Below are positions 544 through 64,000 of a stretch of 64,000 nucleotides of DNA, one piece after another. Position numbers and translations under genes: made by a program. The stretch spans positions 560,983 through 624,982 of the forward strand of contig NZ_LMMO01000004.1 of NCBI RefSeq assembly GCF_001422285.1, written 5' to 3'. The stretch comes from Frigoribacterium sp. Leaf263 (GTDB taxonomy: Bacteria > Actinomycetota > Actinomycetes > Actinomycetales > Microbacteriaceae). The notes under the pieces are model-generated. The model did no database searches, had not been told where the DNA came from, and worked only from the letters and a program-made list of their open reading frames with translations. Every line of letters starts with the position of its first letter. Positions within the stretch are counted from its first letter, which is position 1.

Positions 544-554
544 GAGGAGGCGCG
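544..554 (+). repeat. dispersed GAGGAGGCGCG element, single copy
   Basis: Exact core of the dispersed element, in the context GCCGAGGAGGCGCGCTAC. It sits about 13 bp upstream of the GTG start of the phosphodiesterase gene, so its AGGAGG could also contribute to ribosome binding, although the spacing is long. Confidence 0.5.
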
Positions 555-567
555 CTACCGTGGCGGC

Positions 568-1554
568 GTGACTCCCGTCCCACAGGTCATCGCCCACCGC
601 GGAGCCAGCGGCCACCGCCCCGAGCACTCCGAGGCCGCGTACCGCCTCGCGATCGAGCTCGGCGCCGACGCGATCGAGCCCGACATCGTCGCCAGTCGCG
701 ACGGCGTCCTGGTGCTGCGCCACGAGAACGAGATCTCGGGCACGACGGATGTCGCCGATCACGCCGAGTTCGCCGACCGGCGGACGACGAAGCGCATCGA
801 GGGCGCCGACGTCACCGGCTGGTTCACCGAGGACCTCACCTGGGCCGAGCTCTCGACGCTGACAGTGCGCGAGCGGCTGCCCGAGGTCCGCCCGCGCAGC
901 GCCGAGCACGACGGGACGGGGCGCATGCTCCGTCTGTCCGATCTGGTGCGCCTCCTCGACGCCGCCGACCGGCCCGTCGGACTCGTCGCCGAGATCAAGC
1001 ACGCGACCCACTTCGAGTCGATCGGCCTGCCGCTCGACGAGCTCGTGGCCGACGAGCTGCGGAGCGTCGGCTGGGCGGGCGACGAGCGGCTGACGATCGA
1101 GAGCTTCGAGCGGACCGTGCTCGATCGGGTGCGCGCCCGGGGGATCGGGGCGCGTTACGTCTACCTGATCGAGAAGCGCGGAGCTGCGGCCGACCTCGTG
1201 GCGCGTCTCGGGTCGGCGGCTCCGAGCTACGCGTCGCAGCTCGAGGCGCCGTCGCTCGCCCGGTTCGCCGCCGAGGGGCTGCACGGCGTCAGTCTCGACA
1301 AGTCGACGCTGATCGACGCCGCCGGGTCGACCGACGCCCGCGTCGTCGATCGCGCCCAGGCCGCGGGTCTCGCGGTCTTCGCCTGGACGCTCCGGGCCGA
1401 GAACGCGTTCCTCTCGCGGGCTCACCGCGGACCGGGAGGGCGGGGCGCGCAGGGTCACTACGTCGACGAGTTCCGCGCGCTCATGGCGCTCGGTCTCGAC
1501 GGCGTCTTCGCCGATCAGCCGGAGCTCGCGATCGCGGTCCGCGACGGACTCTGA
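568..1554 (+). CDS. glycerophosphodiester phosphodiesterase
   Basis: A 328-residue cytosolic enzyme of the GDPD family, which hydrolyses deacylated phospholipids (glycerophosphodiesters) to glycerol-3-phosphate and an alcohol. The signature is near the N-terminus: VIAHRGASGHRPEHSEAAY, then GADAIEPDIVASRDGVLVLRHE, which supplies the catalytic His and the metal-binding Glu/Asp residues of this TIM-barrel family. The start is the GTG at 568. There is no signal peptide, so it acts inside the cell. Length fits the family. It is a single gene, followed by a hairpin at 1578-1619 and then by the helicase gene. Confidence 0.9.
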   Translation: MTPVPQVIAHRGASGHRPEHSEAAYRLAIELGADAIEPDIVASRDGVLVLRHENEISGTTDVADHAEFADRRTTKRIEGADVTGWFTEDLTWAELSTLTVRERLPEVRPRSAEHDGTGRMLRLSDLVRLLDAADRPVGLVAEIKHATHFESIGLPLDELVADELRSVGWAGDERLTIESFERTVLDRVRARGIGARYVYLIEKRGAAADLVARLGSAAPSYASQLEAPSLARFAAEGLHGVSLDKSTLIDAAGSTDARVVDRAQAAGLAVFAWTLRAENAFLSRAHRGPGGRGAQGHYVDEFRALMALGLDGVFADQPELAIAVRDGL

Positions 1555-1577: not shown

Positions 1578-1619
1578 CGAGGAGGCGCGGTGCCTGACCG
1601 CGCGACCCGCGCCTCCTCG
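1578..1619. terminator. hairpin made of two inverted copies of the dispersed element
   Basis: CGAGGAGGCGCGG at 1578-1590 is the exact reverse complement of CCGCGCCTCCTCG at 1607-1619, with a 16-nt loop. The 13-bp GC stem directly follows the phosphodiesterase stop and precedes the helicase gene. It could act as a terminator or RNA-stabilising hairpin, though no clear U-tract follows. Confidence 0.6.
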
Positions 1620-9237: not shown

Positions 9238-9636
9238 TCAAGCCTGAAAACGCGCGACCGGCATAGCGGGGCGAGCGTGTCCGACCGTCGTCACCCCCAA
9301 GACGTTGGCACCCGTCTCGGTGACGTACTCCTTGCCGATCGGCGACGACTTGCCGGCCGCCAGGTAGAACGCCTGGCGTCCGTCCGGCAGTCGGTAGGTG
9401 CCGAGCTACGAGGCCCGGTCGCCGTTCCACCGATGGCCGGTGCCCAGACCGGTCGAGGTGATCGCCGAGGCGGGCAGGGCGCCGACCAGCGTGGCGCTGA
9501 GGATGCCCAGCGCCAGCAGGAGGGCGGTCCGAAGTCGTCTTCGTGGGGCCCGCGAGGGGGCGTTCGTGGATGTCCTGGGACGACGATGACGGGTGGGGCG
9601 GGCGTGCCGACGCCGCGCCTCCTCGGCCTGGACCAT
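9238..9636 (-). pseudogene. broken secreted-protein gene (in-frame TAG, displaced 3' end)
   Basis: Read on the reverse strand from an ATG at 9636, the product has a basic N-terminus, a signal-peptide core (TALLLALGILSATLVGALPASA) and a short mature part ending NGDRAS at a TAG (9406-9408). The same frame stays open after the TAG and reads LGTYRLPDGRQAFYLAAG and then SSPIGKEYVTETGANVLG, which looks like real exported protein. The remaining residues to the stop at 9238 look like random sequence. I infer a surface or secreted protein gene inactivated by a nonsense change and truncated at the edge of the defence island. The first residues overlap a copy of the dispersed element (AEEARRR). Confidence 0.6.
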
Positions 9637-11969: not shown

Positions 11970-13133
11970 GTGGATCTTTTCGAGTACCAGGCCAGAGACC
12001 TGTTCGAGCAGTACGGCGTGCCCGTGCTGCCGGGCATCACGGCCGACACCCCCGAGGAGGCGCGTGCCGCGTCCGAGAAGCTGGGTGGCGTGACCGTCGT
12101 CAAGGCTCAGGTCAAGGTCGGCGGGCGTGGCAAGGCCGGCGGCGTCAAGGTCGCGAAGACCCCCGACGACGCCGAGGCCGCCGCTCGCGACATCCTCGGG
12201 CTCGACATCAAGGGCCACGTCGTCAAGCGCGTCATGATCGCCGGCGGCGCGCAGATCGCGCAGGAGTTCTACTTCTCGGTGCTGCTCGACCGAGCCAACC
12301 GCTCGTACCTCTCGCTCTGCAGCGTCGAGGGCGGCATGGAGATCGAGCAGCTCGCCGTCGAGAAGCCCGACGCCCTCGCTCGCATCGAGGTCGACCCCCG
12401 CTCGGGCATCGACCTGGCCAAGGCCACCGAGATCGCGAAGGCCGGCGGGTTCCCCGACGAGCTGATCGAGAAGGTCGCCCCCGTGCTCGTCAAGCTCTAC
12501 GCCGTGTACGAGGGCGAGGACGCCACGCTCGTCGAGGTCAACCCGCTCGTCCTGACCGAGCAGGGCGACATCGTCGCCCTCGACGGCAAGGTCTCGATCG
12601 ACGAGAACGCCGACTTCCGTCACCCCGGTCACGCCGAGCTCGAAGACGCCGACGCTGCCGACCCCCTCGAGGCGAAGGCCAAGGCCGCCGGCCTCAACTA
12701 CGTCAAGCTCGACGGCGAGGTCGGGATCATCGGCAACGGCGCGGGCCTCGTCATGTCGACGCTCGACGTCGTCGCGTACGCCGGCGAGGCGCACGGCGGC
12801 GTCAAGCCCGCGAACTTCCTCGACATCGGCGGCGGAGCGAGCGCCGAGGTCATGGCCGCCGGACTCGACGTCATCCTCGGCGACGCCCAGGTCAAGAGCG
12901 TCTTCGTCAACGTCTTCGGCGGCATCACGGCCTGCGACGCCGTCGCGAACGGCATCGTCGCCGCGCTCGGCATCCTCGGCGACACCGCCACCAAGCCCCT
13001 CGTCGTCCGACTCGACGGCAACAACGTCGACGAGGGCCGACGCATCCTCGCGGAGGCGGCGCACCCCCTCGTCACCGTCGTGGCGACCATGGACGAGGCC
13101 GCCGACAAGGCCGCCGAGCTGGCTTCGAAGTAA
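11970..13133 (+). CDS. sucC: succinyl-CoA ligase [ADP-forming] subunit beta
   Basis: 387 residues, the usual family length. The ATP-grasp domain is evident from [39 protein letters not shown] and [21 protein letters not shown]. The CoA-ligase half carries [13 protein letters not shown] and [19 protein letters not shown]. With SucD it interconverts succinyl-CoA and succinate in the TCA cycle, coupled to ATP or GTP. The start is the GTG at 11970 with GGAAG upstream. sucD follows after 15 bp. An exact copy of the dispersed 11-mer occurs at 12054, but here it encodes the family's normal PEEARAA helix. Confidence 0.97.
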
Positions 13134-14183: not shown

Positions 14184-15875
14184 ATGAACCGCCCTGCCAC
14201 CGCCGCCTTCGCGGCCCTCGAAGCCCTGCTCGTCGTCGGCATCGGCGTCGGGCTCCCGGTCGCGGTCATGAGTCTGCTCTGGGCGTTCCAATACGGGCTC
14301 CAGCTCGACTGGGTCATCTTCTGGCGCGCCTCCGTCGACACCTGGCTCGTCGGGCACGGCGTCGATCTCACGCTGCAGCTCAGCGGGCCGGCAGCCGAGG
14401 CGACCGGCGTCGCCGGGGCCGACGCCCCCATCGGCATCACCATCGCCGCCCTCGGCTTCTCGGCGCTGACGGTGCTGCTCGGTCTCCGCGCCGGTCGGGC
14501 CATCGCCGAGACCCGGCACCGGGTGACCGGCCTCCTCGTGACCATCGTGACGTTCGCGCTCATCTCGCTCGGTCTCGCCGCCACCGCCCAGCACGCTCTC
14601 GCCGCGCCCTCCCTCTGGCAGGCGCTCGTGCTGCCGCCCCTCGTCTACGCCGTGCCCGTGCTCGTCATGGCCGAGATCACCCGGCGGCGACGAGGTGAGG
14701 ACCCCGGCCCCGTGGCCCTCTTCGTCACCCGACTCGTCGTCCGCGCGCCTCTCGCGGCCCGGGTCGTCGCGGCAGGCGGTCTGCGGGCCGGCCTCGCGAC
14801 CGCCGCCGTCGTGCTCTCCGTCGCGGCGCTCATCGTGGCGCTGCTGCTGCTGACGCACTTCTCGCAGATCATCACCCTCTACGAAGGCGCGCACGGGGGT
14901 CTGCTCGGCGGCCTCGCGCTCACGATCGGGCAGCTCGCGCTGCTGCCCAACGTCATCGTCTGGGCCGCATCGTGGCTGATCGGGCCGGGTTTCGCTCTGG
15001 GCACCGGCTCCGCTGTCTCGCCCCTCGGCACGTCGGTCGGTCCGCTGCCGGCCGTGCCGTTCCTCGGCGCTCTGCCCACGGCCGATCTGCCCTTCGCCTT
15101 CGTCGGGCTGCTCGTGCCCGTCGTCGCCGCGTACGTCATCACGACCCTCCTGCGACCACGGCTGCAGGCGGCTCTGGCCGCGGCAGGCGTCGACGACGTC
15201 CTCCGCCGCGTGCTCGTCGGCGTGGCGGTCGGCCTCACGGCCGGTGTCGCGATCGGCCTGGCCTCGTGGGCGTCGGCCGGCTCGGCCGGACCGGGGCGTC
15301 TCGTCGACGTCGGACCGGACCCGTGGGTCGTCGGCGCGATCGCCGCGCTCGAGGTCGCCGTGCCCGCCGTCCTCGCCATGATCGTCACCCCGCCGCGGTT
15401 CGTGGGCGGCGTGGGGCTGCCGACCCGCGCCTCCTCGGTGTCCACCGACGGCACGACCCGCCCCGGGTCGGATCGCTCGGCGTCGACCACGGCGAGCCGC
15501 CTGCCGCGCGAGTTCGGCACCCCGCCGGTCGACGGCGCCGGAGGCGCGTGGGCGTCGGCCGGAGCCGTCACCGCGACCCGGGGTGACGAGGGCGACGACG
15601 ACCGTGACGCCGCGCGCCTCGGCGAACGGGCCGGTGGCCCCGCCGACGCCGACGCCGACGCCGCCGCCACCGCCTCCATCGGAGACGGCGAGGGCGGCGC
15701 AGCGGCAGGCGGCGGCGCGACGGGTCGAGAATCGTCGCCGTCCGCCGTCGGCCGAGATGGCGACGACGGCCGCGACGACGGCCGCGGCGACGGCCGAGAC
15801 CCCGATGAAGACCCCGCTCACGACCCCGACGACGACCCCGACGTGACGGACCGTCTCGACGGACTCACCCGCTGA
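14184..15875 (+). CDS. DUF6350 family multi-pass membrane protein
   Basis: 563 residues with about ten hydrophobic segments in the first 400 residues (for example ALLVVGIGVGLPVAVMSLLWAF and FVGLLVPVVAAYVITTLL), followed by a long hydrophilic Asp/Arg/Gly-rich tail. The position between sucD and purN and the sequence style match the actinobacterial DUF6350 family, whose function is unknown. The tail contains a clear copy of the dispersed element at 15426, read as PTRASSVSTDG, and ends in low-complexity DDGRDDGRGDGRD-type repeats. That the tail tolerates such insertions suggests that it is disordered and cytoplasmic. Confidence 0.85.
   Translation: MNRPATAAFAALEALLVVGIGVGLPVAVMSLLWAFQYGLQLDWVIFWRASVDTWLVGHGVDLTLQLSGPAAEATGVAGADAPIGITIAALGFSALTVLLGLRAGRAIAETRHRVTGLLVTIVTFALISLGLAATAQHALAAPSLWQALVLPPLVYAVPVLVMAEITRRRRGEDPGPVALFVTRLVVRAPLAARVVAAGGLRAGLATAAVVLSVAALIVALLLLTHFSQIITLYEGAHGGLLGGLALTIGQLALLPNVIVWAASWLIGPGFALGTGSAVSPLGTSVGPLPAVPFLGALPTADLPFAFVGLLVPVVAAYVITTLLRPRLQAALAAAGVDDVLRRVLVGVAVGLTAGVAIGLASWASAGSAGPGRLVDVGPDPWVVGAIAALEVAVPAVLAMIVTPPRFVGGVGLPTRASSVSTDGTTRPGSDRSASTTASRLPREFGTPPVDGAGGAWASAGAVTATRGDEGDDDRDAARLGERAGGPADADADAAATASIGDGEGGAAAGGGATGRESSPSAVGRDGDDGRDDGRGDGRDPDEDPAHDPDDDPDVTDRLDGLTR
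15426..15436 (-). repeat. dispersed element inside the DUF6350 gene
   Basis: CGCGCCTCCTC within CGACCCGCGCCTCCTCGG. It is read as TRASS and falls exactly where the membrane domain ends and the disordered tail begins. Confidence 0.7.
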
Positions 15876-16526: not shown

Positions 16527-18145
16527 GCGGCCACGCCATCGACCCCACCCTCTACCGCGACCGCGACACCGTGCCCGTCCGCCGGGCGCTGATCAGCGTC
16601 AGCGACAAGACGGGGCTGCTCGACCTGGCGGGGGCGCTCGCCGCGGCCGGGGTCGAGATCGTCTCCACCGGGTCGACGGCGTCGACCATCCGCGACGCCG
16701 GTCACGAGGTCACCGACGTCAGCGCGGTGACCGGGTTCCCCGAGTCGCTCGACGGGCGCGTGAAGACGCTGCACCCGGCCGTGCACGCGGGGATCCTCGC
16801 CGATCTGCGGCTCGAGTCGCACGAGGCGCAGCTCGCCGAGCTCGACATCGCGGCCTTCGAGCTCGTCGTCGTCAACCTCTACCCGTTCGTCGCGACGGTC
16901 GCCTCGGGCGCCGACGCGCCGACGGTCATCGAGAACGTCGACATCGGCGGCCCGGCCATGGTGCGTGCCGCGGCGAAGAACCACGCCAACGTGGCGATCG
17001 TCGTGTCGCCGTCGAACTACGCCCAGGTCGTCGACGCGCTCGGCACCGGAGGCACGACCCTCGCCCAGCGCCAGCGCCTCGCCGGTGAGGCGTTCGCCCA
17101 CACCGCGTCGTACGACACGGCGGTCGCGGCGTACTTCGCCGCCAACGTCGGCACCGGGTCGGCAGCGCCGGCCGAGGAGGCGCGGGTCGACTTCGCCCCC
17201 GCGGTCACCGTCTCGGCCGAGCTGCAGCACACCCTCCGCTACGGCGAGAACTCGCACCAGGCCGCCGCGATCTACGCGACCCCGGGTGCGCACGGCATCG
17301 CCCAGGCTCAGCAGCTGCACGGCAAGGAGATGTCGTACAACAACTACGTCGACGCCGACGCCGCCCTGCGCGCCGCCTACGACTTCGACGAGCCCGCCGT
17401 CGCGATCATCAAGCACGCCAACCCCTGCGGCATCGCCGTCGCCTCCGCCGACGCGATCGACCCCATCGCCGACGCGCACCGTCGCGCCCACGAGTGCGAC
17501 CCCGTCTCGGCCTTCGGCGGGGTCATCGCCGCCAACCGGCCGGTCACGCGCGCGATGGCCGAGACGGTGCGCGACATCTTCACCGAGGTGGTGATCGCTC
17601 CGGGCTTCGACCCCGAGGCCGTCGAGATCCTCAGCGCCAAGAAGAACATCCGCCTGCTGACGCTCCCCGCCGACTACGCGCGCGACGGCCGCGAGGTCAA
17701 GCAGATCTCGGGTGGTCTGCTCGTGCAGGACGCCGACGTCTTCACCGGGTTCTCGTCGGAGGGCTGGACCCTCGTCGCCGGCGACGAGGCCGACGCCGCC
17801 ACCCGCGCCGACCTCGAGTTCGCCTGGAAGGCCTCGCGGGCCGTCAAGTCGAACGCGATCCTCCTCGCCTCGGGAGGCGCGTCGGTCGGCGTCGGCATGG
17901 GCCAGGTCAACCGCGTCGACTCGTGCCACCTCGCGGTGGACCGCGCCGGCGAGCGTGCGGCCGGATCGGTCGCCGCCTCGGACGCCTTCTTCCCCTTCTC
18001 GGACGGCCTGCAGGTGCTGCTCGACGCCGGCGTCGCGGCCGTCGTGCAGCCCGGCGGCTCGATCCGCGACGACGAGGTCATCGCGGCCGCAGCGGCCGCC
18101 GGCGTGACCATGTACTTCACGGGTGAGCGTCACTTCTTCCACTGA
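16523..18145 (+). CDS. purH: bifunctional AICAR formyltransferase/IMP cyclohydrolase
   Basis: 540 residues starting at the ATG that overlaps the purN stop. The N-terminal MGS-like cyclohydrolase domain shows [28 protein letters not shown] and [15 protein letters not shown]. The transformylase domain shows [38 protein letters not shown] and [11 protein letters not shown]. It performs the last two steps to IMP. A copy of the dispersed element at 17174 is read as [12 protein letters not shown] and sits in the linker between the two domains. A strong hairpin follows the stop at 18181-18220. Confidence 0.97.
17174..17184 (+). repeat. dispersed element in the inter-domain linker of purH
   Basis: GAGGAGGCGCG in the context GGCCGAGGAGGCGCGGGTCG, which matches the full extended consensus. 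It encodes EEARV between the cyclohydrolase and transformylase domains, where length variation is tolerated. Confidence 0.65.
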
Positions 18146-18297: not shown

Positions 18298-18405
18298 ATG
18301 ACGATGACAGCGACCACGACGGTCGGACGCGACGACCGTGTCCTCTCAGCCCGCGCCTCCTCGGCCCTGACGGTCGTCGACTCCGAACCGGCTGCGGCGG
18401 CCTGA
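18298..18405 (+). CDS. possible 35-aa leader peptide upstream of the ABC exporter
   Basis: An ATG at 18298, seven bases or so after CTGGGGGAC, opens a frame starting [15 protein letters not shown] and ending in a run of Ala at a TGA. It carries a copy of the dispersed element, read as SARASSA. It lies between the purH terminator and the exporter genes. Between this ORF and the exporter start (18554) are several GC-rich self-complementary segments, for example CTCCCC-A-GGGGAG near 18494. That arrangement would suit ribosome-mediated attenuation, as known for some drug-transporter genes. This role is inferred only. Confidence 0.3.
18352..18362 (-). repeat. dispersed element in the exporter leader
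   Basis: CGCGCCTCCTC in the context GCCCGCGCCTCCTCGGCCCTG, within the candidate leader ORF and upstream of the ABC exporter. Confidence 0.6.
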
Positions 18406-41488: not shown

Positions 41489-41908
41489 TCAGCGCGCGAG
41501 AGACCAGACGAGCAACGCGACGAGCGTCACGAGCGGGAACAGCCCCTGAGTCGACGCGGCGCGCCGCTTCGTGCGGTCGGACAGCGCCAGCACGAGCGCC
41601 GCGGCGAGCATCGAGCCGGTGCCCGCGACCAGGAGGGCGAGACCGGCGGAGGAGACGTCGTCGACCTGACCCGCGCCTCCTCGGCTGGTCGCGACGAGAA
41701 CGACGCCGACCGCGGTCACGATCGCGAGGAACAGATTGTAGAAGCCCTGGTTGAAGGCCATCGGCTTCGTGTGCTCGAGCTGCCGGTCGTCGTCGATGCC
41801 GAACGTCGCGCGGACCCGCGGGGTCGACCAGAGCACGGACTCCATCACGAAGATGTAGACGTGCAGCAGAGCGGCCAGGGAGGCGGCGACGAGCGAGACG
41901 ATGAGCAT
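41489..41908 (-). CDS. DUF1304 family membrane protein
   Basis: 139 residues with four membrane helices. The family pattern is clear: LAALLHVYIFVMESVLW, KPMAFNQGFYNLFLAIVT, then GTGSMLAAALVLALS and LFPLVTLVALLVW. The function is unknown. A copy of the dispersed element at 41672 lies between helix 2 and helix 3 and is read as SRGGAGQVDD, which lengthens a loop that is usually short. The gene is transcribed alone. Confidence 0.88.
   Translation of the reverse strand: MLIVSLVAASLAALLHVYIFVMESVLWSTPRVRATFGIDDDRQLEHTKPMAFNQGFYNLFLAIVTAVGVVLVATSRGGAGQVDDVSSAGLALLVAGTGSMLAAALVLALSDRTKRRAASTQGLFPLVTLVALLVWSLAR
41672..41682 (-). repeat. dispersed element in a loop of the DUF1304 gene
   Basis: CGCGCCTCCTC in the context TGACCCGCGCCTCCTCGGCTGGTC. 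On the coding strand it is read as RGGAG in the loop between predicted helices 2 and 3. Confidence 0.7.
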
Positions 41909-45202: not shown

Positions 45203-45213
45203 CGCGCCTCCTC
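45203..45213 (-). repeat. dispersed element upstream of the ohrR operator
   Basis: CGCGCCTCCTC in the context GCGCGCGCCTCCTCGGCCCTGGCC, 18 bp before the inverted repeats in front of the MarR/OhrR gene. Confidence 0.55.
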
Positions 45214-46331: not shown

Positions 46332-46355
46332 GTCTGCGGTGAGCGGGTCGCGGGA

Positions 46356-46447
46356 CCGAGGAGGCGTGGGTCGCGGACCCGAGGAGGCGCGGCTCGCGGA
46401 CCCGAGGGGGCGCGGCTCAGCGACCCGAGGAGCCGCGGCTCAGCGAC
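46356..46447 (+). repeat. tandem array of the dispersed element, exact 23-bp period
   Basis: CCGAGG starts at 46356, 46379, 46402 and 46425, always 23 bp apart, and a decayed fifth unit begins near 46448. The unit is close to CCGAGGAGGCGCGGCTCGCGGAC; individual units carry one or two changes. This array defines the unit length of the element better than any single copy. Its end overlaps the stop of a small reverse-strand gene. Confidence 0.9.
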
Positions 46448-46594: not shown

Positions 46595-46605
46595 CGCGCC
46601 TCCTC
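46595..46605 (-). repeat. dispersed element upstream of the photolyase gene
   Basis: CGCGCCTCCTC in the context GGCCCGCGCCTCCTCGGCCTGG, between the small membrane peptide gene and the photolyase start. Confidence 0.6.
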
Positions 46606-48907: not shown

Positions 48908-50176
48908 TCAGCGGCCGAGCAGCTCGATCATCCGGTCGGCGACGACCCGCGCCCCGTCGTCGTTCGGGTGGACGCCGTCGGCGGACAGCAGCGACGAGAG
49001 CTCGCCGTCGGCCGCGGCGTCGGCGAGCAGGGCGTCGCCGAGCGGCAGGAGCACCGAGCCGGTCTGCTCGGCGACCGACGCGACGGCCGCCTGGTAGTCG
49101 GCGCTCGACCCCTGCCGGGCGAAGAGCCCGCCGAGGTCCGAGCTGAACTCGTCGACGAGCACGACGGTCGGCGGGTCGTCCAGCGCCTTGATCCCGTCGA
49201 CGAGACCCCGGTAGCCGGTCTCGAGCTCGGCCGGTCCGATGTCCGCCGCGTCGTTGGCGCCGAGGGTGATGGTGACGAGGTCGGGCTGCGCGGCCGCGAC
49301 CTTCGCCAGGAAACCGTCGAGGTCGGCCGTGAAGTCGGCGACCGTCGCGCCGGTGTGGGCCGAGTCGAACAGGGTGACGCCGCGATCGCGGTCGCCGTCG
49401 AACGCCGTGATGCCCTCGAACACGAAGCCTGCCGGCGCGTCGGGATCGACGAAGACCGTGACGGTGTGCACGGCGCTCTCGAGACCGCTCACGGTGGTGA
49501 CGCCGGCCCCCGCGACCGGACCCGCGCCTCCCTCGGCATCGCTCGCGCCCGCGGCGCTCGTGTCGACCGGTGCGCCCTCGACCCCGTCGACCAGGTACCG
49601 GAACGGCCCGCCGCCCGGCGACCACCAGAGGTCGAGATCGCTGCCGGTCACCTGGTACGTGACGCTCGAGCCCGGTTCGAGGTCGACGCTGCGGTAACCG
49701 AGGCTCGGCGTCGTGTAGTCGGGCGTGACGGCGGTCTGATCGGTCTGCCAGGCGGCCCAGGTCGAGTCCGGCCCGTAGACGGCGTAGACGCCCGGGCGGT
49801 ACCCCACGCCGCCGGTGACGCCGTCGACCGCGTAGCGCTGCTGCAGGGCGTCGCGGGTGAGATCGATCCAGCGGTTCTCGACGGACGACGCGCCCTGGCC
49901 CTCGGTCAGCGAGTCGCCGAGGGCCAGCCAGCGGGCCGAGGCGGTGTCGGTCTCGGCGAGGGCGGCGTCCCATGCGGCCCACGGGTCGGCCGTCGGGGTC
50001 GGCGCGGGCGTCGGCTCGCCGCTGCACCCGGCGACGAGCGCGGTCGCGGCGGCCACGGCGACGACCGCGAGAGCGCGCACGCCGCGGCGGCGGCCCGGTC
50101 GCGACGCCGGACGGGATGCTGCCCGTCGCGACGCCGGGGGAGTCGTCGGCGAGGCAGCCGAGGAGGCGCGGGTCAC
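48908..50176 (-). CDS. SGNH/GDSL-type hydrolase lipoprotein
   Basis: 422 residues if it starts at the GTG at 50176, which overlaps the stop of the ABC-F gene (GTGA). A basic stretch, a hydrophobic core and a lipobox (ALVAGCSG) follow. Block I is WLALGDSLTEGQGAS with the catalytic Ser; block III is ITLGANDAAD; block V is GVHPNDDGARVVADRM. Such enzymes are esterases or acetyl-hydrolases acting on cell-surface glycans. The GTG start is itself part of a dispersed element, so the first residues read MTRASSAAS. A GTG at 50080 would give a more usual lipoprotein signal and is a plausible alternative start. A second, imperfect element near 49520 encodes EGGAGP in a linker. Confidence 0.85.
   Translation of the reverse strand: MTRASSAASPTTPPASRRAASRPASRPGRRRGVRALAVVAVAAATALVAGCSGEPTPAPTPTADPWAAWDAALAETDTASARWLALGDSLTEGQGASSVENRWIDLTRDALQQRYAVDGVTGGVGYRPGVYAVYGPDSTWAAWQTDQTAVTPDYTTPSLGYRSVDLEPGSSVTYQVTGSDLDLWWSPGGGPFRYLVDGVEGAPVDTSAAGASDAEGGAGPVAGAGVTTVSGLESAVHTVTVFVDPDAPAGFVFEGITAFDGDRDRGVTLFDSAHTGATVADFTADLDGFLAKVAAAQPDLVTITLGANDAADIGPAELETGYRGLVDGIKALDDPPTVVLVDEFSSDLGGLFARQGSSADYQAAVASVAEQTGSVLLPLGDALLADAAADGELSSLLSADGVHPNDDGARVVADRMIELLGR
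50160..50170 (+). repeat. dispersed element at the junction of two genes
   Basis: GAGGAGGCGCG in the context GCCGAGGAGGCGCGGGTCACAGC. The complementary strand supplies GTGACCCGCGCC, including the presumed GTG start of the SGNH gene and, within it, the TGA stop of the ABC-F gene. Confidence 0.75.
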
Positions 50177-51993: not shown

Positions 51994-52024
51994 AGGAGGC
52001 GCGGGGACGTGGGCCGCGCCTCCT
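51994..52024. repeat. hairpin from two inverted dispersed elements
   Basis: AGGAGGCGCGG at 51994-52004 and CCGCGCCTCCT at 52014-52024 form a perfect 11-bp stem with a 9-nt loop, in the divergent region between the ABC-F gene and the gene at 52087. Confidence 0.8.
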
Positions 52025-52086
52025 CGGCTTGGTAGCGTCGGGGCACGCGAGGGCCGGATGTCGGCGCCTCGAGTCAGGGGGATGAC

Positions 52087-55115: not shown

Positions 55116-58100
55116 CTAGTCGACGGTCAAGCCGACACTGTCGCGGAACACATCCACCCCGCCTCCCACGACCGTACCGCCGACAGCGGATCCGAAGAGA
55201 CCGGCCGTGTTGTGCGCCCCGAGGTTGAGCGCTCCAGTCAACGACCTCGGGCTGAAGTAGGGCATCTGCGCAAGCGTGTTGACCCCGTGTTGGCCGGGAA
55301 TCACACGGTCGAGTGGCAGGGCTGAGAGCCCAGATCCCACGACTCCGTTCACGGCGACCTCGAGAGGGTTCACGTCCTCGCCTGCCACGATGCTCTGCAC
55401 CGCTGTACCCGCAGACGACCCCACGCCGGAGAGAACGACCGTGCTCGCCGTCGCCACACCACTGGTTGCCGTATGGCCCAGATTGCGAGCGATCGTGCCA
55501 CCTGCCGGTCCTGCCAGTCCGCCGACTGAGCCAGACACGCCTCCACCGACGATCGCACCCGCGAAGTCCCAACCGTTCTCGATCCGCCCGCCATGGCTGG
55601 CCAGATAGGTGGCGCCACCGCCGACCGCGCCGACTCCGCCGTTGGCCGCGACGTTGACTGCCACGGCTCGTCCGGCCTGAGCCGCAGGAGCCGATGCCAT
55701 CGCTGCCTTGCCGAAGGCACCCGCCGCGCCTCCAGCGCCCCCGAGCACACCTCCTATGGCCGCGTCCGTGGCGACCTTGCCCCAGTCGACTTCTCCTGTC
55801 TGAGCCTTCTGCGAGACGACTGAGACACCACCGCCGATGAAAGCACCGGATGCCGCGCCGATCAAGGCCATGCCGACAGGGCCGCCGACACCGGTGAACA
55901 TGAGACCGACGCCGACAGCGATCGCAGCTCCCGCGGCGACGTACTCCCAGTTCTCGCCCCACCAGTCGCCCGCATCCGCCAGTGCGCCCTGGTTCGCTTT
56001 CGCGTAGGCGTCGAGGTCCGCGTCCGTCGCCGGGCGAAGCCCGAGCGGGTCGAGAGCATGCAGCGGGTCGTTGCCCGCATACGAGTACGGGTTCCCGGCC
56101 CACCCCGCACCCAGCACGGGCGTCAGCGGATCGGTCGACAGGAAGCCTCGAGTCGAGGGGTCGTAGACCCGCGCCCCGAGCCAGTCGAGGCCGGCGACCG
56201 CGAGGCCACCCGACGCGGACAGCTCCACACCGGCAGGCAACTCGAGACCCGGGATTCCCGACGAGGTGCGAAGCGCCTCCCACGGATCAGTGACATCCGT
56301 CGCCCGCGCACCCCGCCAGGTCGGCTCCAGCGGCGAACCGCCGACGGTCGTGGCCCCACCGGGCATCGTCACGACCGATGCGTCACCGATCGACACGAGC
56401 GACGGCACAGCACTGGCGGTGTCCCACCAGGTGTCGACATCGTCGATGGTGGCGAGCTCGCCGAGCACATCCACCCAGAGACTCGTCTGCGAGACGATGC
56501 CCCCGTCGCGGTCCCGGACGGTGATCGCCGTGGGCCAGCCGAGGTCGCTCCAGGCGTACTCGGTGAACGAGCCGTCGGTGTCGATCCGGCGGATCCGACG
56601 ACCGAGACCGTCGTGCACATACTCGACGGAGGCGACCACGACCGTGTCGAGGGCGTCCGTCGACGACCCGACCCGCGCCTCCTCGGAGACCAGCTGACCC
56701 GCTGCGTCGTACCGGAAGGTGCGCACTCGACCGTCGACGAGCTCATGCGTCAGTCGGCCGGCGGCGTCGTACGACCAGGTGGAGGTGCGGCCGTCACGCT
56801 CGAGTCCGATGAGCTGGCAGGCGGCGTCGTAGGCGTAGTCGACCCGTCCGTCGACGGTGTCGAGGGCGACGATGCGGGCGTCGTCGTCGCGGATGATCCG
56901 AGTCGTCGACGAGCCCTCGGGAGTCGTGCTCGTGTGTCGGGAGAGATGCCCCTCCGCGTAGTCCCAGGTCTGGAGGTCGCCATCGGTCGTGGCCTCGACG
57001 ACCCGACCAGCGGCGTCGTACGAGACGTGCGCGCCGTCCTGTCCGTCGCGGACGACGGAGACCACGCGACCCGCGGCGTCACGCCGATAGTCGAGACGGC
57101 TGCCATCGGGATCGATGCGCGCGGTGCGTCGGCCGTCGGCGTCGTACTCCCACGAGACCGCCTCGCTGCCGCGGGCACGGCGGATGAGGAGCCCCCGCCG
57201 GTCGAACGTCAGCTCGTGCTCGACGTCGACCCCGTCGGAGCGCGTGTGATCGGTCACCACGATCGTCCGCGAGAACGCGTCGCGACTGAACGACGACCGC
57301 AGTCGTCCGTCGACGCTCATGCCCGAGGGGTTCCCTGCAGCGTCGTGGGTCCACGTGGTGGTCGTGCCGGTGGGGTCCTGCTGCGAGACCTGGCGGCCCG
57401 CAGCGTCGTACGCGGCGGTCGTCGCCCGGCCCAGGGGGTCCGTGACGGCGACGATGCGGTCGGCGGCGTCGTACTCGCGCCGTGTCTCGCGGCCGAGCGG
57501 GTCGGTGATGGAGACGACGCGTCCGCGCACGTCGTACTCGAAGCGGGTCACGCCGCCGAGACCGTTGATCGCCTCGATCAGCTGACCGGCCGCGTCGTAG
57601 CGGAAGCGACGGCGACCGTAGCGGGTGTCCTGGGTGCCGATGAGGCGCCCGGCTGCGTCGTAGTCGAACCGCGCCTGTCCGTGACCCGGGGTCGACCTGC
57701 TGACAACACGCCCCACGGCGTCGTACCGGACGCGCTCGACGTCGCCGGTCGGCAGCGTGCGCGCGACGACCCGCGAGTCGGCGTCGTAGGTCAGAGTGGT
57801 GCGCGCGCCGAGGGGGTCGATGCTCGCCGAGGCGCGACCACACGAGTCGTACTCGTAGGTCGTCCGGGCTCCCGAGGGGCTGACGACCGCGATCACGCGC
57901 CCGCCGGCGTCGCGCTCGAGGCGCGTCAGACCGCCCTCGCCGTCGACCAGCTCGACCGGCCGGCCGCAGCGGTCGTACGTCGTCAGCTCCGCCGAGCCGT
58001 CGGCGGCCTCGGTCGCCACCGGGCGCCCGAACTCGTCGAAACGGAGGGTCGTGGTGCCGAACGCATCACGCAGGGTGCCGGTGCCGTCTGCGCGGTCGAC

Positions 58101-60644
58101 CCGCGCCTCCTGCCGGACACCCGTCGGGTCGACGGTCGCGGTGAGCGCACCGGTGACGTCGTACTCGCGGGTCCAGTCGTGACCCGCGGGGTCGGTGATG
58201 GTCCGGAGGCGCGAGAGACCGTCGTGCGCGAACGCCCACGACGAGCCGTCGGGCAGCTCCAAAGCCGAGACGTCGCCCTGGTCGTCGAAGCGACGCGACA
58301 CGACGCGACCGAGCGGATCGGTCGTGGTCTCGAGGTCGCCGTGCGGGCCGTAGCCGAACTCGGTCCGCGCGCCCAGCGGATCGACGATCGCCGTCACCCG
58401 GGCACCCGCGCCGTGCTCGAAGCGCCAGATGGCGCCGTCGGCGTCGCGACGCGAGACCAGCAGCCCCGCGGCGTCGTAGGTGTAGGTCGTGCGAGCTCCC
58501 GACGGGCTGACCGCCGCCGACGGCCGACCGGCGTGGTCGCGCTCGATGCGCGCGACGTCGCCGACCGCGTTCTCCGTGGCGACCAGGTCGCCGAACTCGT
58601 CGTAGTGGCAGCGGACGACGACGCCGGTCGGATCGACGACGCTCTCGAGCAGTCCGTCACGCCAGCGCATCAGCGTGCGGCCGCCCTCGGGGTCGACCAG
58701 CGCCGACGGGTTGCGCTCGGCGTCGTCGGCGTACTCGTACTCGACGACGGCGCCCGACTCGGTCACGACGGTGGTGACGCGGTCGCGGGCGTCGTAGCCG
58801 TAGGTCAGATCGGCGCCCGACGGGGTCACGGTGCGGATCTTGCGCCCGCGCTCGTCGAAGCCGTTGACCGTGATGGAGCCGTCGCGCTCGGTGACCGAGA
58901 CGAGGTTCCCGCTGGGGTCGTAGCTCATCGACTGGCGCCGGTCGTCGGAGTCGACGACGCCGACGAGCCGCCCCCGGGAGTCGGCGATGTAGGTGTTCGA
59001 GCGGCTGCCGTCGACGTCGGAGACGACCGTCACCCGACCCGGCAGATACGCGAAGCGCACCGTGCGGCCGTGCGGCGACACCTGCAGCGTCACACGCCCC
59101 TGCTCGTCGTACGTGTTGAGGGCCTCGACCACGCCGGAGGCGCTGGTCACCCTCTCGACGAGACCCGCGTCGTTCCAGTCGTACCGTCGCGTGCCCACCT
59201 CGTTCGCGGCGCCGGTCAGGCGGCCGGCCGAGTCGTACGAGTACTCGACCCGGCGACCGTCGGAGGCGGTGAGGGTCGCGACCCGACCGTCGACGTAGTC
59301 GATGTCGATCGTGCGACCACGCGCGTGGGTCAGGCGCGACGGGAGTCCGTCGGGGGCGCGGGTGACCCGGACGACCGTGCCCGCGCCTCCTCCGCTCGCC
59401 AGCCAGACGCCCGCGGGGGAGAACGCCCACCAGCCGCCGGTGTTGTCGCGAACCACGAGGAGGGTCTCGGCACCCGTGTCGCCGAGTCCGGGCAGGGTCG
59501 ACGCGACCTCGGCCGCGAGCCAGAAGTTCTCGCCGACGGCGCGATCCCACGAGCTGCCGAGCCGGGGGAACGTGACGACACGGCCGTCGTCCATCGTGAA
59601 GGCGGCGCCCTCGTCGTCGAGGGCGAGACCGAGCTCGAGCACGGAGCCCCAGCCAAGGCCGAACGGACCGACGTGGTCGTCGAGCGAGTTGTAGGTGCGC
59701 GAGACCCGCAACGAGGAGGCGGCACCCGCGAAGGCGAGATCGACCTCGGTCTCGAGGAAGTTGCCCGTGGTGGTGTTGACCGGGTCCATCGTGAAGCCGG
59801 TCGTGGGCGGCGACCCCCAGCCCTGGGCGGGAGGGACGACGAGGTCGTCGCGCTGACCCTGGACCCCGGCGGCCTGGAGCGCGGAGGCGAGCGCGGAGTC
59901 GGCGACGGTCGAGACGACCCCGGAGCCGCCGGCGGCCTCGAAGGCGGCGGCGACCGTGTTCGCCCACGCGACGTCGGTGGCGTTGGCGTTCAGCCAGGTG
60001 GTGAAGCTCGCGACGACGCCGTCGGCCTGGATCACGCCCCACTGGCAGTCGGACGCGAAGTCGGCGAGCTTGCCCGAGAGCGTGGAGGGGCGGCCGGTCA
60101 GCTCGCCGTCGAGGGCGGCGCTGCCCGTCGCGAAAGAGCGCAGGTCGTCGGGCCTCGCCGACGAGGTCCCGCCACCGCCGCCGCCCGAACCGGGGGCGGG
60201 CGTCTCGCGCGTTCCGACGTTGGCGTCCTGCGGCTCGAGCCGGGGTACCGGTTCGGGCTGCTCGCGGGGCATCTCCTCGCCACCGAAGAGGTCGTCGCGC
60301 CGCTCTTCGAGCCAGTTGCGGTCGTCCTGACGCTGCTTCCACTCGCGTGCCTTGCGGCGGCGGTCGTTCTCCTGCTCGGCCGCCTCCTTCAGCTCGCCCG
60401 CGAAGTCGGCGATCGCCCGGAAGCTCGTGGCGAGGGCGCTGGCGCCCGTCGCCGCCGTCGCCGCGTTCGCGGTGAAGAGCTCGGAGAAGAGCCCGCGGAA
60501 CTCCTGAGACGCGGTCGTGACGAGCGACGAGCGAGACCCGCTCTGCCCCTCGATGTCGGACGCCGCGTCGTTGAACGCGGTGATGAGCGCATCGGCCGTG
60601 CCGTCGTCGAACGGTACGGGCTCGTTTCCACCAGGATCTGCCAT
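55116..60644 (-). CDS. RHS/YD-repeat protein with WXG-like N-terminal domain
   Basis: 1842 residues from the ATG at 60644, preceded by GAGGAAG. The first 90 residues are a helical hairpin with LXG/WXG-like character (ALITAFNDAASDIEGQ, GLFSELFTANAATAATG), as in proteins exported by type VII secretion. A DUF6531-like motif follows (GFTMDPVNTTTGNFLETEVDLAF), then about 30 YD repeats of the type YDAAGRLIGTQDTRYGRRRF to about residue 1480, and the core-ending motif AGNDPLHALDPLGLRPATDADL. The last 330 residues are Gly/Ala-rich and hydrophobic (VGVGLMFTGVGGPVGMALIGAAS) and end in VDVFRDSVGLTVD. No enzymatic toxin domain is evident after the core. At least two dispersed elements fall in YD repeats (EEARV and GGGAG frames). 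Confidence 0.93.
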   Translation of the reverse strand: MADPGGNEPVPFDDGTADALITAFNDAASDIEGQSGSRSSLVTTASQEFRGLFSELFTANAATAATGASALATSFRAIADFAGELKEAAEQENDRRRKAREWKQRQDDRNWLEERRDDLFGGEEMPREQPEPVPRLEPQDANVGTRETPAPGSGGGGGGTSSARPDDLRSFATGSAALDGELTGRPSTLSGKLADFASDCQWGVIQADGVVASFTTWLNANATDVAWANTVAAAFEAAGGSGVVSTVADSALASALQAAGVQGQRDDLVVPPAQGWGSPPTTGFTMDPVNTTTGNFLETEVDLAFAGAASSLRVSRTYNSLDDHVGPFGLGWGSVLELGLALDDEGAAFTMDDGRVVTFPRLGSSWDRAVGENFWLAAEVASTLPGLGDTGAETLLVVRDNTGGWWAFSPAGVWLASGGGAGTVVRVTRAPDGLPSRLTHARGRTIDIDYVDGRVATLTASDGRRVEYSYDSAGRLTGAANEVGTRRYDWNDAGLVERVTSASGVVEALNTYDEQGRVTLQVSPHGRTVRFAYLPGRVTVVSDVDGSRSNTYIADSRGRLVGVVDSDDRRQSMSYDPSGNLVSVTERDGSITVNGFDERGRKIRTVTPSGADLTYGYDARDRVTTVVTESGAVVEYEYADDAERNPSALVDPEGGRTLMRWRDGLLESVVDPTGVVVRCHYDEFGDLVATENAVGDVARIERDHAGRPSAAVSPSGARTTYTYDAAGLLVSRRDADGAIWRFEHGAGARVTAIVDPLGARTEFGYGPHGDLETTTDPLGRVVSRRFDDQGDVSALELPDGSSWAFAHDGLSRLRTITDPAGHDWTREYDVTGALTATVDPTGVRQEARVDRADGTGTLRDAFGTTTLRFDEFGRPVATEAADGSAELTTYDRCGRPVELVDGEGGLTRLERDAGGRVIAVVSPSGARTTYEYDSCGRASASIDPLGARTTLTYDADSRVVARTLPTGDVERVRYDAVGRVVSRSTPGHGQARFDYDAAGRLIGTQDTRYGRRRFRYDAAGQLIEAINGLGGVTRFEYDVRGRVVSITDPLGRETRREYDAADRIVAVTDPLGRATTAAYDAAGRQVSQQDPTGTTTTWTHDAAGNPSGMSVDGRLRSSFSRDAFSRTIVVTDHTRSDGVDVEHELTFDRRGLLIRRARGSEAVSWEYDADGRRTARIDPDGSRLDYRRDAAGRVVSVVRDGQDGAHVSYDAAGRVVEATTDGDLQTWDYAEGHLSRHTSTTPEGSSTTRIIRDDDARIVALDTVDGRVDYAYDAACQLIGLERDGRTSTWSYDAAGRLTHELVDGRVRTFRYDAAGQLVSEEARVGSSTDALDTVVVASVEYVHDGLGRRIRRIDTDGSFTEYAWSDLGWPTAITVRDRDGGIVSQTSLWVDVLGELATIDDVDTWWDTASAVPSLVSIGDASVVTMPGGATTVGGSPLEPTWRGARATDVTDPWEALRTSSGIPGLELPAGVELSASGGLAVAGLDWLGARVYDPSTRGFLSTDPLTPVLGAGWAGNPYSYAGNDPLHALDPLGLRPATDADLDAYAKANQGALADAGDWWGENWEYVAAGAAIAVGVGLMFTGVGGPVGMALIGAASGAFIGGGVSVVSQKAQTGEVDWGKVATDAAIGGVLGGAGGAAGAFGKAAMASAPAAQAGRAVAVNVAANGGVGAVGGGATYLASHGGRIENGWDFAGAIVGGGVSGSVGGLAGPAGGTIARNLGHTATSGVATASTVVLSGVGSSAGTAVQSIVAGEDVNPLEVAVNGVVGSGLSALPLDRVIPGQHGVNTLAQMPYFSPRSLTGALNLGAHNTAGLFGSAVGGTVVGGGVDVFRDSVGLTVD
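56674..56684 (-). repeat. dispersed element in the RHS repeat region
   Basis: CGCGCCTCCTC in the context CGACCCGCGCCTCCTCGGAGACC, the full extended form. The RHS protein reads SEEARVGSS here, between two YD units. A second copy at 59382-59392 is read as GGGAG, and a near copy at 58098 as RQEARVDR. Confidence 0.75.
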
Positions 60645-60790: not shown

Positions 60791-60798
60791 GGGTGCTG

Positions 60799-61080: not shown

Positions 61081-61339
61081 GAGTGATGTCCCCTTCATCT
61101 GGATGTAGCCCCCGTGCGAGACGCCCCCGGGGCTCGAACATGACGAGACTATCCCGTCGCGACCAGGATGCACCCGTCGTGACCGATCTGTCGGTCCCCA
61201 TTCGGGGGCCGTGGGCCCCGGGGAGCACCGATCCGTCTGTCGTCCGGTCGTCGGGGACCCTGTTGGGGGTCATCGCCGCCGTCCGGTGTGCCCCTATCAT
61301 GCTGAGGAGGTACGGCACTTTCTAGGGGGAACGGTCTTC

Positions 61340-64000
61340 ATGACCCGGGGCGAAACGACACACGGCACGGCTATGCGATCACGACGAGGGGGGCGCGCTC
61401 TCGGCGTCGTCGCCATGGCGGGGGTCGTCGCGCTGCTCGCGACGGCCTGCACGTCCGAGCCGACAGTCGTCGAGAACCCGTCGAAGATCCTGCAGACCGT
61501 CGACACCACGCTGGCCTCCGACGGGTCGATCACGGCCGTCTCGAGCACGGCCATCTCGGTCGACGACGCGACCCGCACCTCCTCGTCGGCCACCGCCGAG
61601 CACGTGCCCGCCGACGTCGCAGGCGACCTGCCGCTGCGCATCAGCACGCAGTACCGCACCGCGGACGGCACGGGCACCGACCTGGCCGACCTCGACGGCT
61701 ACGACGGCCGAGTCGAGATCGAGCTCACCGTCGAGAACCTCACCGTCGCCCCTCGAGACCTCAGCTACGACGTCGCGGGCACCTCGCGCACCGACGCCGC
61801 GCTCGTCGGCGCCCCGATCAGCCTCGCCGCGTCGACCGTGCTGACCGGCGTCTCGCCCAGTCAGATCATCGCCGACTCCACCGGCGGCGACTCGAGCGCC
61901 GGCACCGACGGCATCGTCAGCACCACGAAGGACGGCGACGCCGTCGTGCAGTGGGCCGCCCTCCTCGCCCCGCCGCGGTCGGGCGCCAGCACGACCCTGC
62001 ACCTCGTCGCCGACGTGAACGACTTCGCGACCCCCACGATCGAGCTGGCTGCGCAGCCCGGCATCTCGACCGACCTCACCGTCGACGGCGTGCTCGGCTC
62101 GGCCTTCGACTCGTCGACGACCTCCGAGCTGGCGCTGCAGCAGCGCACCATCGACCTCGTCGGCGACGTCAACACCGTGCTGAGCCGCGCCGGCGAGACG
62201 ATCACCGAGGTGCGCACCAACCTCGAGAGCACCTCCGAGACCCTCGGCGTCCGCACCGCCGAGCAGCTGAAAGACAGCAGCTCGTCGCTCGCCGCGACCA
62301 TGACGGGCCTGAACAGCCAGCTCACCTCGCTCGACTCGGACCTCACCGCGACGGTCACCGGCACCGAGTCGACCGTGCTGAGCCAGCTCCAGCAGACGGT
62401 CGCGAGCGTCGACTCGCTGCTCGGCGACACCGACGCGGGTAAGCCCACCGTGACCATCGACGGCGAGGGCTGCGCCGCGATCGTCGCCGAGCCCGGGCAG
62501 ACCACCAGCGTCTACGGCAGCCTGCTGCAGGTCTCCGCCCAGCTCGACGGGTACGCCCAGTCGACCGCCGGCTGCCGCGACCAGGTCGCCGCCGAGCTGC
62601 AGCGCACCGTCGGCCCGACCGCCCCCGACGCCGAGAGCTGCGCCACGGCCCCGTCGCTGACCTGCGCCCTGTTCGCCTCGTCGCTCACCGTCACGGCCGC
62701 CCTCATCGGGCTCGTCACCGACGGTGCCGCCCTCGCCGACGAGCTGCAGCCCGAGCTGGCACAGCAGGCCATCGAGAGCAACGACTCGCTGACCGCCGAG
62801 CTGGCCGAGCTCGACGAGCAGGTCGACGCCCTCGCCGAGGACGCCTCGTCCGACGAGGTCGCTCAGGCCCTCGAGTCGCTCCGTTCGACGGCGGAGTCGG
62901 TGTCGGTCGGCGTGCCCACCCTGCGCGACCAGGTCGACGGCCTGCACGATCAGGCCCAGCGTGCCCGCGACCGGATCGGCAACGTGCCCGAGCCGTCGTC
63001 GACTAACCCGTTCTTCTCGGAGACGATGCAGGGGCAGAACGCCCGACTGGCCTTCGAGCTGTGCCAGAAGATCGAGACCCGCTTCACCGACGGGCTCTCG
63101 CGCGACGAGGTCGAGCGGCTGAGGTCGTTCCTCACCGACGTGCCCTGCGACGCGCCCGACGACGGCGGCGAGGGCGGCGACGACGGTGACGACGGCGAGC
63201 AGCCGCAGCCGACGCCGACGCCCACCGCGACGCCGACCCCCGCGCCCACCGCCCCGCCGACGACCCAGCCCACCGCTGCGCCGACGAGCGCGCCCACGGC
63301 CGAACCGACCGCGGAGCCGACGACCGACCCGACCTCCGACCCGACGACCGACCCGACGACGGCCCCGGCCTCGGTCGGCGCCGCGAGTCGCATCGACGCG
63401 GGCGCGCAGGCCCTGCGCCCGCCGTTCCCCTACGAGTTCCCGATGAGCGAGCGACTCGCGAACCAGGCCTCCGAGTGGGAGGCGCTCATCAGCGCCACGG
63501 ACGTCGACCGTGATCGACTGCCCGGCGGCGTCGGCGACACCATCGCGACCTTCCAGACGACGACGGACAACCTCGACGAGGCCATCGACCGGCTCGAGCG
63601 GACGATCCGGGCCGGCGACGGCGGGATCGACTCGGCCGTCTCGGCGCTGCAGGAGCGCGTCGCCGTCGCGCAGGGGCAGAACGCCACGGTCACCGAGCGC
63701 CTCTCGTCGCTGAAGGATCAGCAGGACGCCCTGGCCGACCAGGTCGAGGAGGCGTTCGCCGACGCGTCGATCGACGCGTCGACCGAGATCCAGGGGCTCA
63801 TCGGCTCGCAGGTGCGGGTCGTCGCCGAGCAGGGCGCCGCGACCCGCCAGACCGTGATCGACGCGTTCGATCGCTCGATCGTCGGTCTCTCGACGACGTC
63901 CGACGTCGTCGTCGGCGACGCGAAGGAGACCATCGAGGGGCAGCGCGCCGACCTCGACGAGCAGACCTCGGGTCTGGCCGCAGCGATCGACGAGCAGACG
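61340..64000 (+). CDS. large coiled-coil lipoprotein (3' end beyond window)
   Basis: 887 codons are open from the ATG at 61340 to the window edge. A basic N-terminus (RSRRGGRALG) leads to a signal core and a lipobox (ALLATACTS). The protein is very rich in Ser/Thr/Asp/Glu and predicted coiled coil, with heptad-like stretches such as TRTNLESTSETLGVRTAEQL-type sequence (for example TEVRTNLESTSETLG) and DELQPELAQQAIESNDSLTAEL. A Pro/Thr-rich low-complexity linker lies at about 63200-63370 (PTPTATPTPAP). It is divergent from the WXG100-like gene, 259 bp apart, so it may belong to the same secretion-linked locus. I recognise no family. A single hydrophobic anchor further on is possible but not visible. 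Confidence 0.75.
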   Translation, partial: MTRGETTHGTAMRSRRGGRALGVVAMAGVVALLATACTSEPTVVENPSKILQTVDTTLASDGSITAVSSTAISVDDATRTSSSATAEHVPADVAGDLPLRISTQYRTADGTGTDLADLDGYDGRVEIELTVENLTVAPRDLSYDVAGTSRTDAALVGAPISLAASTVLTGVSPSQIIADSTGGDSSAGTDGIVSTTKDGDAVVQWAALLAPPRSGASTTLHLVADVNDFATPTIELAAQPGISTDLTVDGVLGSAFDSSTTSELALQQRTIDLVGDVNTVLSRAGETITEVRTNLESTSETLGVRTAEQLKDSSSSLAATMTGLNSQLTSLDSDLTATVTGTESTVLSQLQQTVASVDSLLGDTDAGKPTVTIDGEGCAAIVAEPGQTTSVYGSLLQVSAQLDGYAQSTAGCRDQVAAELQRTVGPTAPDAESCATAPSLTCALFASSLTVTAALIGLVTDGAALADELQPELAQQAIESNDSLTAELAELDEQVDALAEDASSDEVAQALESLRSTAESVSVGVPTLRDQVDGLHDQAQRARDRIGNVPEPSSTNPFFSETMQGQNARLAFELCQKIETRFTDGLSRDEVERLRSFLTDVPCDAPDDGGEGGDDGDDGEQPQPTPTPTATPTPAPTAPPTTQPTAAPTSAPTAEPTAEPTTDPTSDPTTDPTTAPASVGAASRIDAGAQALRPPFPYEFPMSERLANQASEWEALISATDVDRDRLPGGVGDTIATFQTTTDNLDEAIDRLERTIRAGDGGIDSAVSALQERVAVAQGQNATVTERLSSLKDQQDALADQVEEAFADASIDASTEIQGLIGSQVRVVAEQGAATRQTVIDAFDRSIVGLSTTSDVVVGDAKETIEGQRADLDEQTSGLAAAIDEQT

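Follow-up and report, generated by a model that had tools for sequence, protein, structure and literature searches.

A conserved, genus-specific DNA word in Frigoribacterium resembles a DNA uptake sequence by most computational criteria

Strong sequence preferences in DNA uptake are attributed to species of two bacterial families, the Pasteurellaceae and the Neisseriaceae (PMC7811141). The DNA uptake sequence (DUS) of the Neisseriaceae is a word of about 10 bp found genome-wide in both coding and intergenic DNA, with clade-specific dialects and with inverted pairs that serve as terminators (PMC3630211 and, for dialects and terminators, PMC13020248). The uptake signal sequence (USS) of the Pasteurellaceae arises by point mutation and is depleted from newly acquired DNA, from rRNA genes and from coding sequence under constraint (PMC7811141), and it is biased to gene ends (PMC2346458). 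In these two unrelated families, such words act as tags by which a cell tells DNA of its own kind during uptake. Here we analyze a motif of the genus Frigoribacterium, seen in a 64,000-nucleotide stretch of Frigoribacterium sp. Leaf263 (the window, contig NZ_LMMO01000004.1). Like the DUS, it is a word of about 10 bp that occurs genome-wide in coding and intergenic DNA, with terminator-like inverted pairs and, apparently, clade-specific dialects; like the USS, it seems to originate by point mutation, is scarce in new DNA and constrained genes, and is biased to gene ends. It differs from both in sequence, and it belongs to another phylum than the DUS, the Actinomycetota, with a receptor that is only putative, whereas the receptor in Neisseria is ComP. 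The motif is a real, genus-specific and conserved signal with hundreds to more than 1000 copies per genome, and it behaves like an uptake sequence in most of the computational tests that we made.

The window contains 25 exact copies of the 11-mer GAGGAGGCGCG, 10 on the plus strand and 15 on the minus strand, spanning positions 544 to 59392 (Table 1), compared to a mean of 0.38 and a maximum of 3 after dinucleotide shuffles of the same DNA. With a simple hexanucleotide array set aside, the word ranks with the most frequent 11-mers of this DNA, and a simple gene caller places 14 of the 25 copies outside called genes and 11 inside. An earlier note on this DNA had counted about 25 exact copies, 10 and 15 by orientation, which agrees exactly with our count, and the inverted pair, direct pair and 23-bp array that it described are present at 1579/1608, 38865/38881 and 46343-46441. 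The conserved part is shorter than the 17-23 bp element of the note, and the core word is the 10-mer AGGAGGCGCG.

The shape of the motif was read from a profile of near-copies, whose row for the source genome (G000) consists of window copies, 52 places within one mismatch of GAGGAGGCGCG and far enough from the window ends. In this profile AGGAGGCGC is almost invariant and is followed by G in 85-88% of near-copies, a sharpness that is partly imposed by the one-mismatch rule. The position 5' of AGGAGGCGC is G in 68-81% or C in 12-26%, the second position 5' is C in 63-75%, and the 3' side of the core shows a weak preference for GG(T)C(G). The USS has an A+T-rich flank, whereas the Frigoribacterium profile has none.

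All 16 Frigoribacterium genomes are rich in the core, with 513-1570 occurrences of AGGAGGCGCG per genome, compared to 10-51 for a reversed control word. This is one core per 2.1-6.4 kb, near-equally divided between the strands; the resulting density of about 0.16-0.47 per kb lies below the 1.08 per kb given for one class of Haemophilus influenzae DNA in PMC7811141. The 15-mer GAGGAGGCGCGGGTC occurs 266 times in the source genome (128/138 by strand; control 0) and 52-305 times in the 15 other members of the genus, whereas 44 genomes from elsewhere in the family and order have 0-2 copies each. In a draw of 398 family genomes, the 10 genus members had 52-266 copies and the other 388 had 0-3. At individual loci, the core was found once in 172 kb of Curtobacterium (eight loci), three times in 171 kb of other Microbacteriaceae, once in 313 kb of Streptomyces and never in 201 kb of Rhodococcus-type DNA. 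An order-4 Markov model for four genomes gives an expectation of 3.35 cores, compared to 129 observed. The idea that low-copy Frigoribacterium genomes use another word was dropped, as pooled de novo k-mers put the same core on top. Six IMG/VR contigs (L009-L014), which are possible phages or mis-binned host DNA, carry the 18-mer, with 1-3 cores in the stretch taken from each.

Codon preference does not explain these copies, as the earlier note had argued and had proposed to check by counts against shuffled-codon controls; the motif is a DNA-level signal that does not depend on the reading frame. The 842 kb examined for this come from 15 genomes of the genus (G008, the sixteenth, enters the genome-wide counts; the window-orthologous analyses of coding, conservation, shared DNA and split alignments use the other 15), and 219 of their 366 cores lie within called genes, far above the mean of 41.5 and maximum of 50 obtained by shuffling synonymous codons within genes. 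A set of 20 stretches from the source genome shows the excess in every one of the six reading frames (121 observed, shuffle mean 35.8); one of these stretches (L176) was picked for ComEC and the rest were spread evenly within contigs. Core density is 3.0 per 10 kb in coding and 12.0 in noncoding DNA over the same 842 kb, where ‘noncoding’ includes some genes missed by the simple GC-frame caller. In a sample of 60 stretches, 259 of 486 copies fall in called genes.

Orthologous sites reveal how strongly the core is kept in place. We made 1489 coding and 576 intergenic motif comparisons, with 4799 and 1338 comparisons of GC-matched 10-mers as controls; the pairs are not independent, and sites less than 200 bp from a stretch end and alignments of less than 45 bp per side were left out. 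At a flank identity of 80-90%, the core is intact in 87/107 intergenic comparisons (81%) versus 58/269 for controls (22%), and in 257/412 coding comparisons (62%) versus 323/1593 (20%). At 60-70% identity, it is intact in 51% of intergenic and 37% of coding comparisons, compared to 4% and 6% of the controls. Where flanks are at least 80% identical, the core is absent in 234 of 950 comparisons; 215 of these absences involve substitutions only, 15 have gaps of fewer than nine bases and 4 have gaps of nine or more. A search for split alignments found one insertion-type case in 3167 comparisons covering 358 sites. These alignments indicate that, at alignable sites, presence or absence of a copy arises by substitution and not by insertion of a unit.

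The earlier note had cautioned that the copies at 12054 and 24302 might be ordinary codons. This may hold for 12054, since the 11-mer is fully retained in 9 of 14 relatives, with one or two base differences in the other 5. The copy at 24302 instead looks like a recent one in this lineage, because all 14 relatives differ within the 11-mer, by substitutions only.

The placement of copies along the chromosome was followed in the 60 stretches, of 20 kb each from three genomes. Orientation is balanced (78/74, 77/66 and 98/93), and in the two genomes for which this was computed, G015 and G004, it is uncorrelated with GC skew and with the coding strand. The DUS and USS are likewise not known to have replication polarity. 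In the window-orthologous regions, DNA shared with no other genome holds 1.83 copies per 10 kb (19 in 104 kb), compared to 3.4-6.8 in shared DNA; sharing was assigned per base from matches in the fetched regions of other genomes and is only a proxy for the age of the DNA. A 20-kb stretch with ribosomal protein genes has one site, and G015 has two 20-kb stretches, apparently accessory, that are free of copies; these labels are a reading of protein starts. By gene decile, the 259 coding copies are distributed as 41, 20, 22, 21, 17, 34, 24, 19, 19 and 42, a bias toward both gene ends in which the first-tenth excess may partly reflect start-site error. In the 60 stretches, adjacent pairs within 60 bp number 40 inverted and 10 direct, compared to 11.8 expected in all orientations under a uniform density that ignores intergenic clustering. 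Convergent genes flank 15 of the 29 facing pairs and same-strand genes another 11; 3 pairs fall within called genes, and none lies between divergent genes, which account for 39.9 of the 145 kb of intergenic DNA. The inverted pair at 1579..1618 of the window has a terminator-like RNA hairpin fold (−38.5 kcal/mol, z −3.91).

We propose, giving it an even chance, that AGGAGGCGCG with its weaker flank preferences is an actinobacterial DNA uptake-type sequence of Frigoribacterium. Preferential uptake followed by recombination is the best-supported mechanism, and a chromosome-binding protein is its main rival. We infer that the competence machinery would include a sequence-selective receptor, for which a Tad/Flp pilin and ComEA are candidates, that this receptor would prefer fragments bearing the motif, and that homologous recombination of the preferred imports would create or restore copies in place across the genome, a form of molecular drive. 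Copies that face each other 3' of genes would in addition form a hairpin that may act as a transcription terminator. A literature search, thin in subscription journals, returned no report of an actinobacterial uptake sequence or of this word.

The genus has candidate machinery for such a process. ComEC is present in 16/16 genomes, and in G000 a ComEA-like HHH protein adjoins it. A weaker T2SSF gene of the Tad-like class is likewise found in 16/16 genomes; in G000, where the neighborhood was read, it adjoins ATPase, Flp-like pilin and TadE-like genes. Transformation via Flp/Tad pili is described for another actinobacterium, Micrococcus luteus (PMC6370729), and natural transformability for Rhodoluna lacicola and Aurantimicrobium photophilum, in Rhodoluna with crtB as the target (PMC11577799). 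The latter two are both classed in the Microbacteriaceae.

Other genera of this family have over-represented words of their own. Of 100 Microbacteriaceae genomes, 64 (for example G067, G100, G063 and G016) have CGGATGCSG at threefold or more the count of the reversed word, with up to 3463 versus 179 copies, and these genomes span most of the genera sampled; its forward and reverse counts are equal, although whole-contig totals of this kind cannot show replication polarity. In both Frigoribacterium genomes among the 100 it stays at control level (276 versus 235, 205 versus 283), which resembles a dialect switch. The word is also at control level in G124 (306 versus 277), a genome of genus g5 in which GCGCAGGAGC is high (717 versus 76), as it is in G186 of the same genus (292 versus 122). 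Five other tested members of g5 are low in GCGCAGGAGC, so that two of seven are enriched, as if the word had changed within the genus. Like the Frigoribacterium core, sister-genus words exceed codon shuffles in several frames: GGATGCCGC in G016 has 25 coding copies where 3.2 are expected, and CGCAGGAGC in G124 has 15 where 4.8 are expected. In a survey by eye, 9 of 20 sampled genomes had no clearly outstanding word.

In Curtobacterium, GACGGGAGGC has 19 copies in eight loci, of which 17 are noncoding and 12 are in inverted pairs about 30 bp apart. The word is mostly followed by a CGGTGC-like tail, and it has GGAGGC-CGGTGC in common with many Frigoribacterium facing pairs. It was found at L030, L031, L034, L036, L038, L040 and L041, partly the same loci across species; k-mers pooled from orthologous loci are partly conserved gene sequence, and of these only the Curtobacterium word was used, after its positions had been checked. 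The further words GACGACCGTGC and CGAGCAGGGCG are over-represented in L158-L159 (G409) and L153-L154 (G363). A wider proposal, which we hold tentatively and at somewhat below an even chance, is that uptake dialects run through the Microbacteriaceae, mostly of the CGGATGCSG type, with AGGAGGCGCG in Frigoribacterium and GCGCAGGAGC in G124 and G186, each spread by transformation-driven drive.

Several observations weigh against uptake as the explanation. ComEC is also found in 20/20 other family genomes from 19 genera, with a strong motif or without, so its presence is permissive only and does not discriminate. The TadE model matched 2 of the 6 Frigoribacterium genomes tested. A PilC-type pilus locus occurs in 13/16 genus genomes, and the three that lack it (G000, G002 and G005) have the highest 15-mer counts of the genus, which makes a type IV pilus a less likely bearer of the receptor. 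Transformable Microbacteriaceae have small genomes, and most small-genome members of the 100-genome draw show little CGGATGCSG enrichment. Sister-genus GGATGC copies have no excess of inverted pairs in the 40 kb taken from each. Within Frigoribacterium, the number of copies per 20-kb stretch is over-dispersed (variance/mean 1.4-3.1), and in window-orthologous regions pairs within 80 bp are direct more often than inverted (19 versus 13). Finally, the alignment fails across the site in 34% of motif versus 8% of control comparisons, so that insertions in such DNA would go unseen, and it appears that copies tend to sit in fast-changing DNA.

The main rival holds that the motif is the binding site of an abundant intracellular protein, whether nucleoid-associated, chromosome-organizing or a global regulator, with some 500-1600 sites kept by purifying selection. 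Such a site would fit the strong conservation in place, the intergenic enrichment and the tandem and inverted arrangements, in particular the 16-30 bp spacing of direct pairs in window-orthologous regions and the 23-bp array. However, coding copies use every one of the six frames and either orientation, facing pairs are missing between divergent genes, strain-specific DNA is copy-poor, and selection would have to act on a very large number of single sites, some of them coding, which asks a great deal; we consider this explanation unlikely, though a serious contender. A derivation from terminators, in which repeated intrinsic-terminator hairpins carry the motif as their stem and lone copies are left over from such hairpins or arise as side products, draws on the facing pairs at gene 3' ends. 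A near-complementary partner lies downstream of 71/227 intergenic copies, compared to 19/227 for the reversed control, and the mostly noncoding, paired Curtobacterium word points the same way. Yet called genes hold 259 of the 486 copies in the 60 stretches, and at least 118/227 intergenic copies lack a near-complementary partner both upstream and downstream, including 21 that lie between divergent genes. A hairpin at gene 3' ends fits the facing pairs and not these intergenic copies or most coding ones, and as an origin for the whole motif we find it improbable.

Repetitive extragenic palindromic (REP) sequences and bacterial interspersed mosaic elements (BIME) are short, dispersed and partly arranged in inverted pairs, as is the Frigoribacterium motif, which is also locally tandem. 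The earlier note had offered a mobile or gene-converted element of this kind, or else a protein-binding site. Two of the four cases with gaps of at least nine bases do resemble gain or loss of an array unit, and the relative G002 has about 47 additional bases at 45203 that contain more motif copies. On the other hand, more than half of the copies are coding, the differences at alignable sites are of the substitution type with no insertion signature, and PF01797, the model for the REP-associated tyrosine transposase (RAYT/Y1) that the note had suggested seeking, is found in 0/16 genus genomes and in 5/14 control genomes. A REP-like mobile element is rejected for alignable sites and is scarcely credible overall; of the note's two suggestions, only the protein-recognized site stays a candidate. 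Composition or mutation bias, or a word of the HIP1 kind, would agree with the over-represented words in other genera of the family. It is quite improbable, given that the motif exceeds codon shuffles, the order-4 Markov expectation and reversed controls, and that the core is conserved against diverging flanks. A recombination hotspot of the Chi kind, or a polar chromosome signal of the FtsK-orienting (KOPS) type, would also be a short, over-represented and G-rich word that is commoner in shared DNA than in DNA specific to a strain. The Chi words described so far are shorter, which counts against it. Moreover, E. coli Chi lies almost only on the leading strand (PMC8022716), whereas the Frigoribacterium motif lacks strand polarity and is common in inverted pairs, making this reading very improbable.

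Table 1. Motif copies and other features of the window (coordinates count from the first base of the 64,000-nucleotide stretch)
Feature	Position	Strand	Context
Exact copy	544..554	+	Outside called genes, just 5' of called gene 568-1554
Inverted pair	1579-1589 / 1608-1618	+ / −	Between two same-strand genes
Hexanucleotide array TGCTGG	4674-4846		28.8 copies; Leu-Val stretch in one open reading frame (ORF)
Exact copy	9614..9624	−	Outside called genes
Exact copy	12054..12064	+	Within gene 11970-13133, putative sucC according to the earlier note
Exact copy with 3' GGTCGGC	15426..15436	−	Within ORF 14184-15875
Exact copy	17174..17184	+	purH-like gene (AICARFT/IMPCHase), in a stretch of variable length among relatives
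Intergenic copy	18352..18362	−	Core kept in 8/8 relatives aligned across the site (67-75% identity); 6 further relatives aligned only in part
Coding copy	24302..24312	−	
Intergenic copy with CCGAGGAGGCGCGGGTCGG	26097..26107	−	
Copy	29450..29460	−	Immediately past end of gene 28613-29449
Copy	35629..35639	+	Histidine kinase gene, part 5' of HAMP domain; kept despite gapped flanks
Coding copy	37700..37710	−	ORF 37283-38860
Direct pair	38865-38875, 38881-38891	+	Just past end of gene 37283-38860
Coding copy	41672..41682	−	ORF 41489-41908
Coding copy	43910..43920	+	ORF 43306-44652 (−)
Coding copy	44069..44079	−	ORF 43306-44652 (−)
Copy	45203..45213	−	Outside called genes
23-bp tandem array	46343..46441	+	Tandem Repeats Finder: period 23, 4.3 copies; one exact copy at 46381-46391
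Copy	46595..46605	−	Outside called genes, 5' of gene 46688-48193 (product presumably photolyase-like; 95% identity to a protein of Frigoribacterium sp. CFBP 13712 and 90% to one of F. faeni)
Copy	50160..50170	+	Outside called genes
Copy	52015..52025	−	Between divergent genes (51873 − / 52087 +)
RHS-repeat gene	55116-60644	−	1842-aa protein, 15 RHS-repeat matches plus DUF6531
Copy	56674..56684	−	Within RHS-repeat gene
Copy	59382..59392	−	Within RHS-repeat gene
Small ORF	60799-61080		Precedes RHS-repeat gene; no Pfam match

Should the uptake reading prove wrong, hundreds to more than 1000 conserved copies of a genus-specific word without a named function would still call for explanation. If the family-wide proposal is true, this would be, according to the literature searched, the first uptake-sequence system outside the Neisseriaceae and Pasteurellaceae and the first in Gram-positive bacteria. 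An independent case in the Actinomycetota in which dialects also switch would open the question why some bacteria tag DNA as their own. The motif would also predict which strains exchange DNA, and adding it would offer a practical handle for the transformation of environmental Actinomycetota in which editing is difficult.

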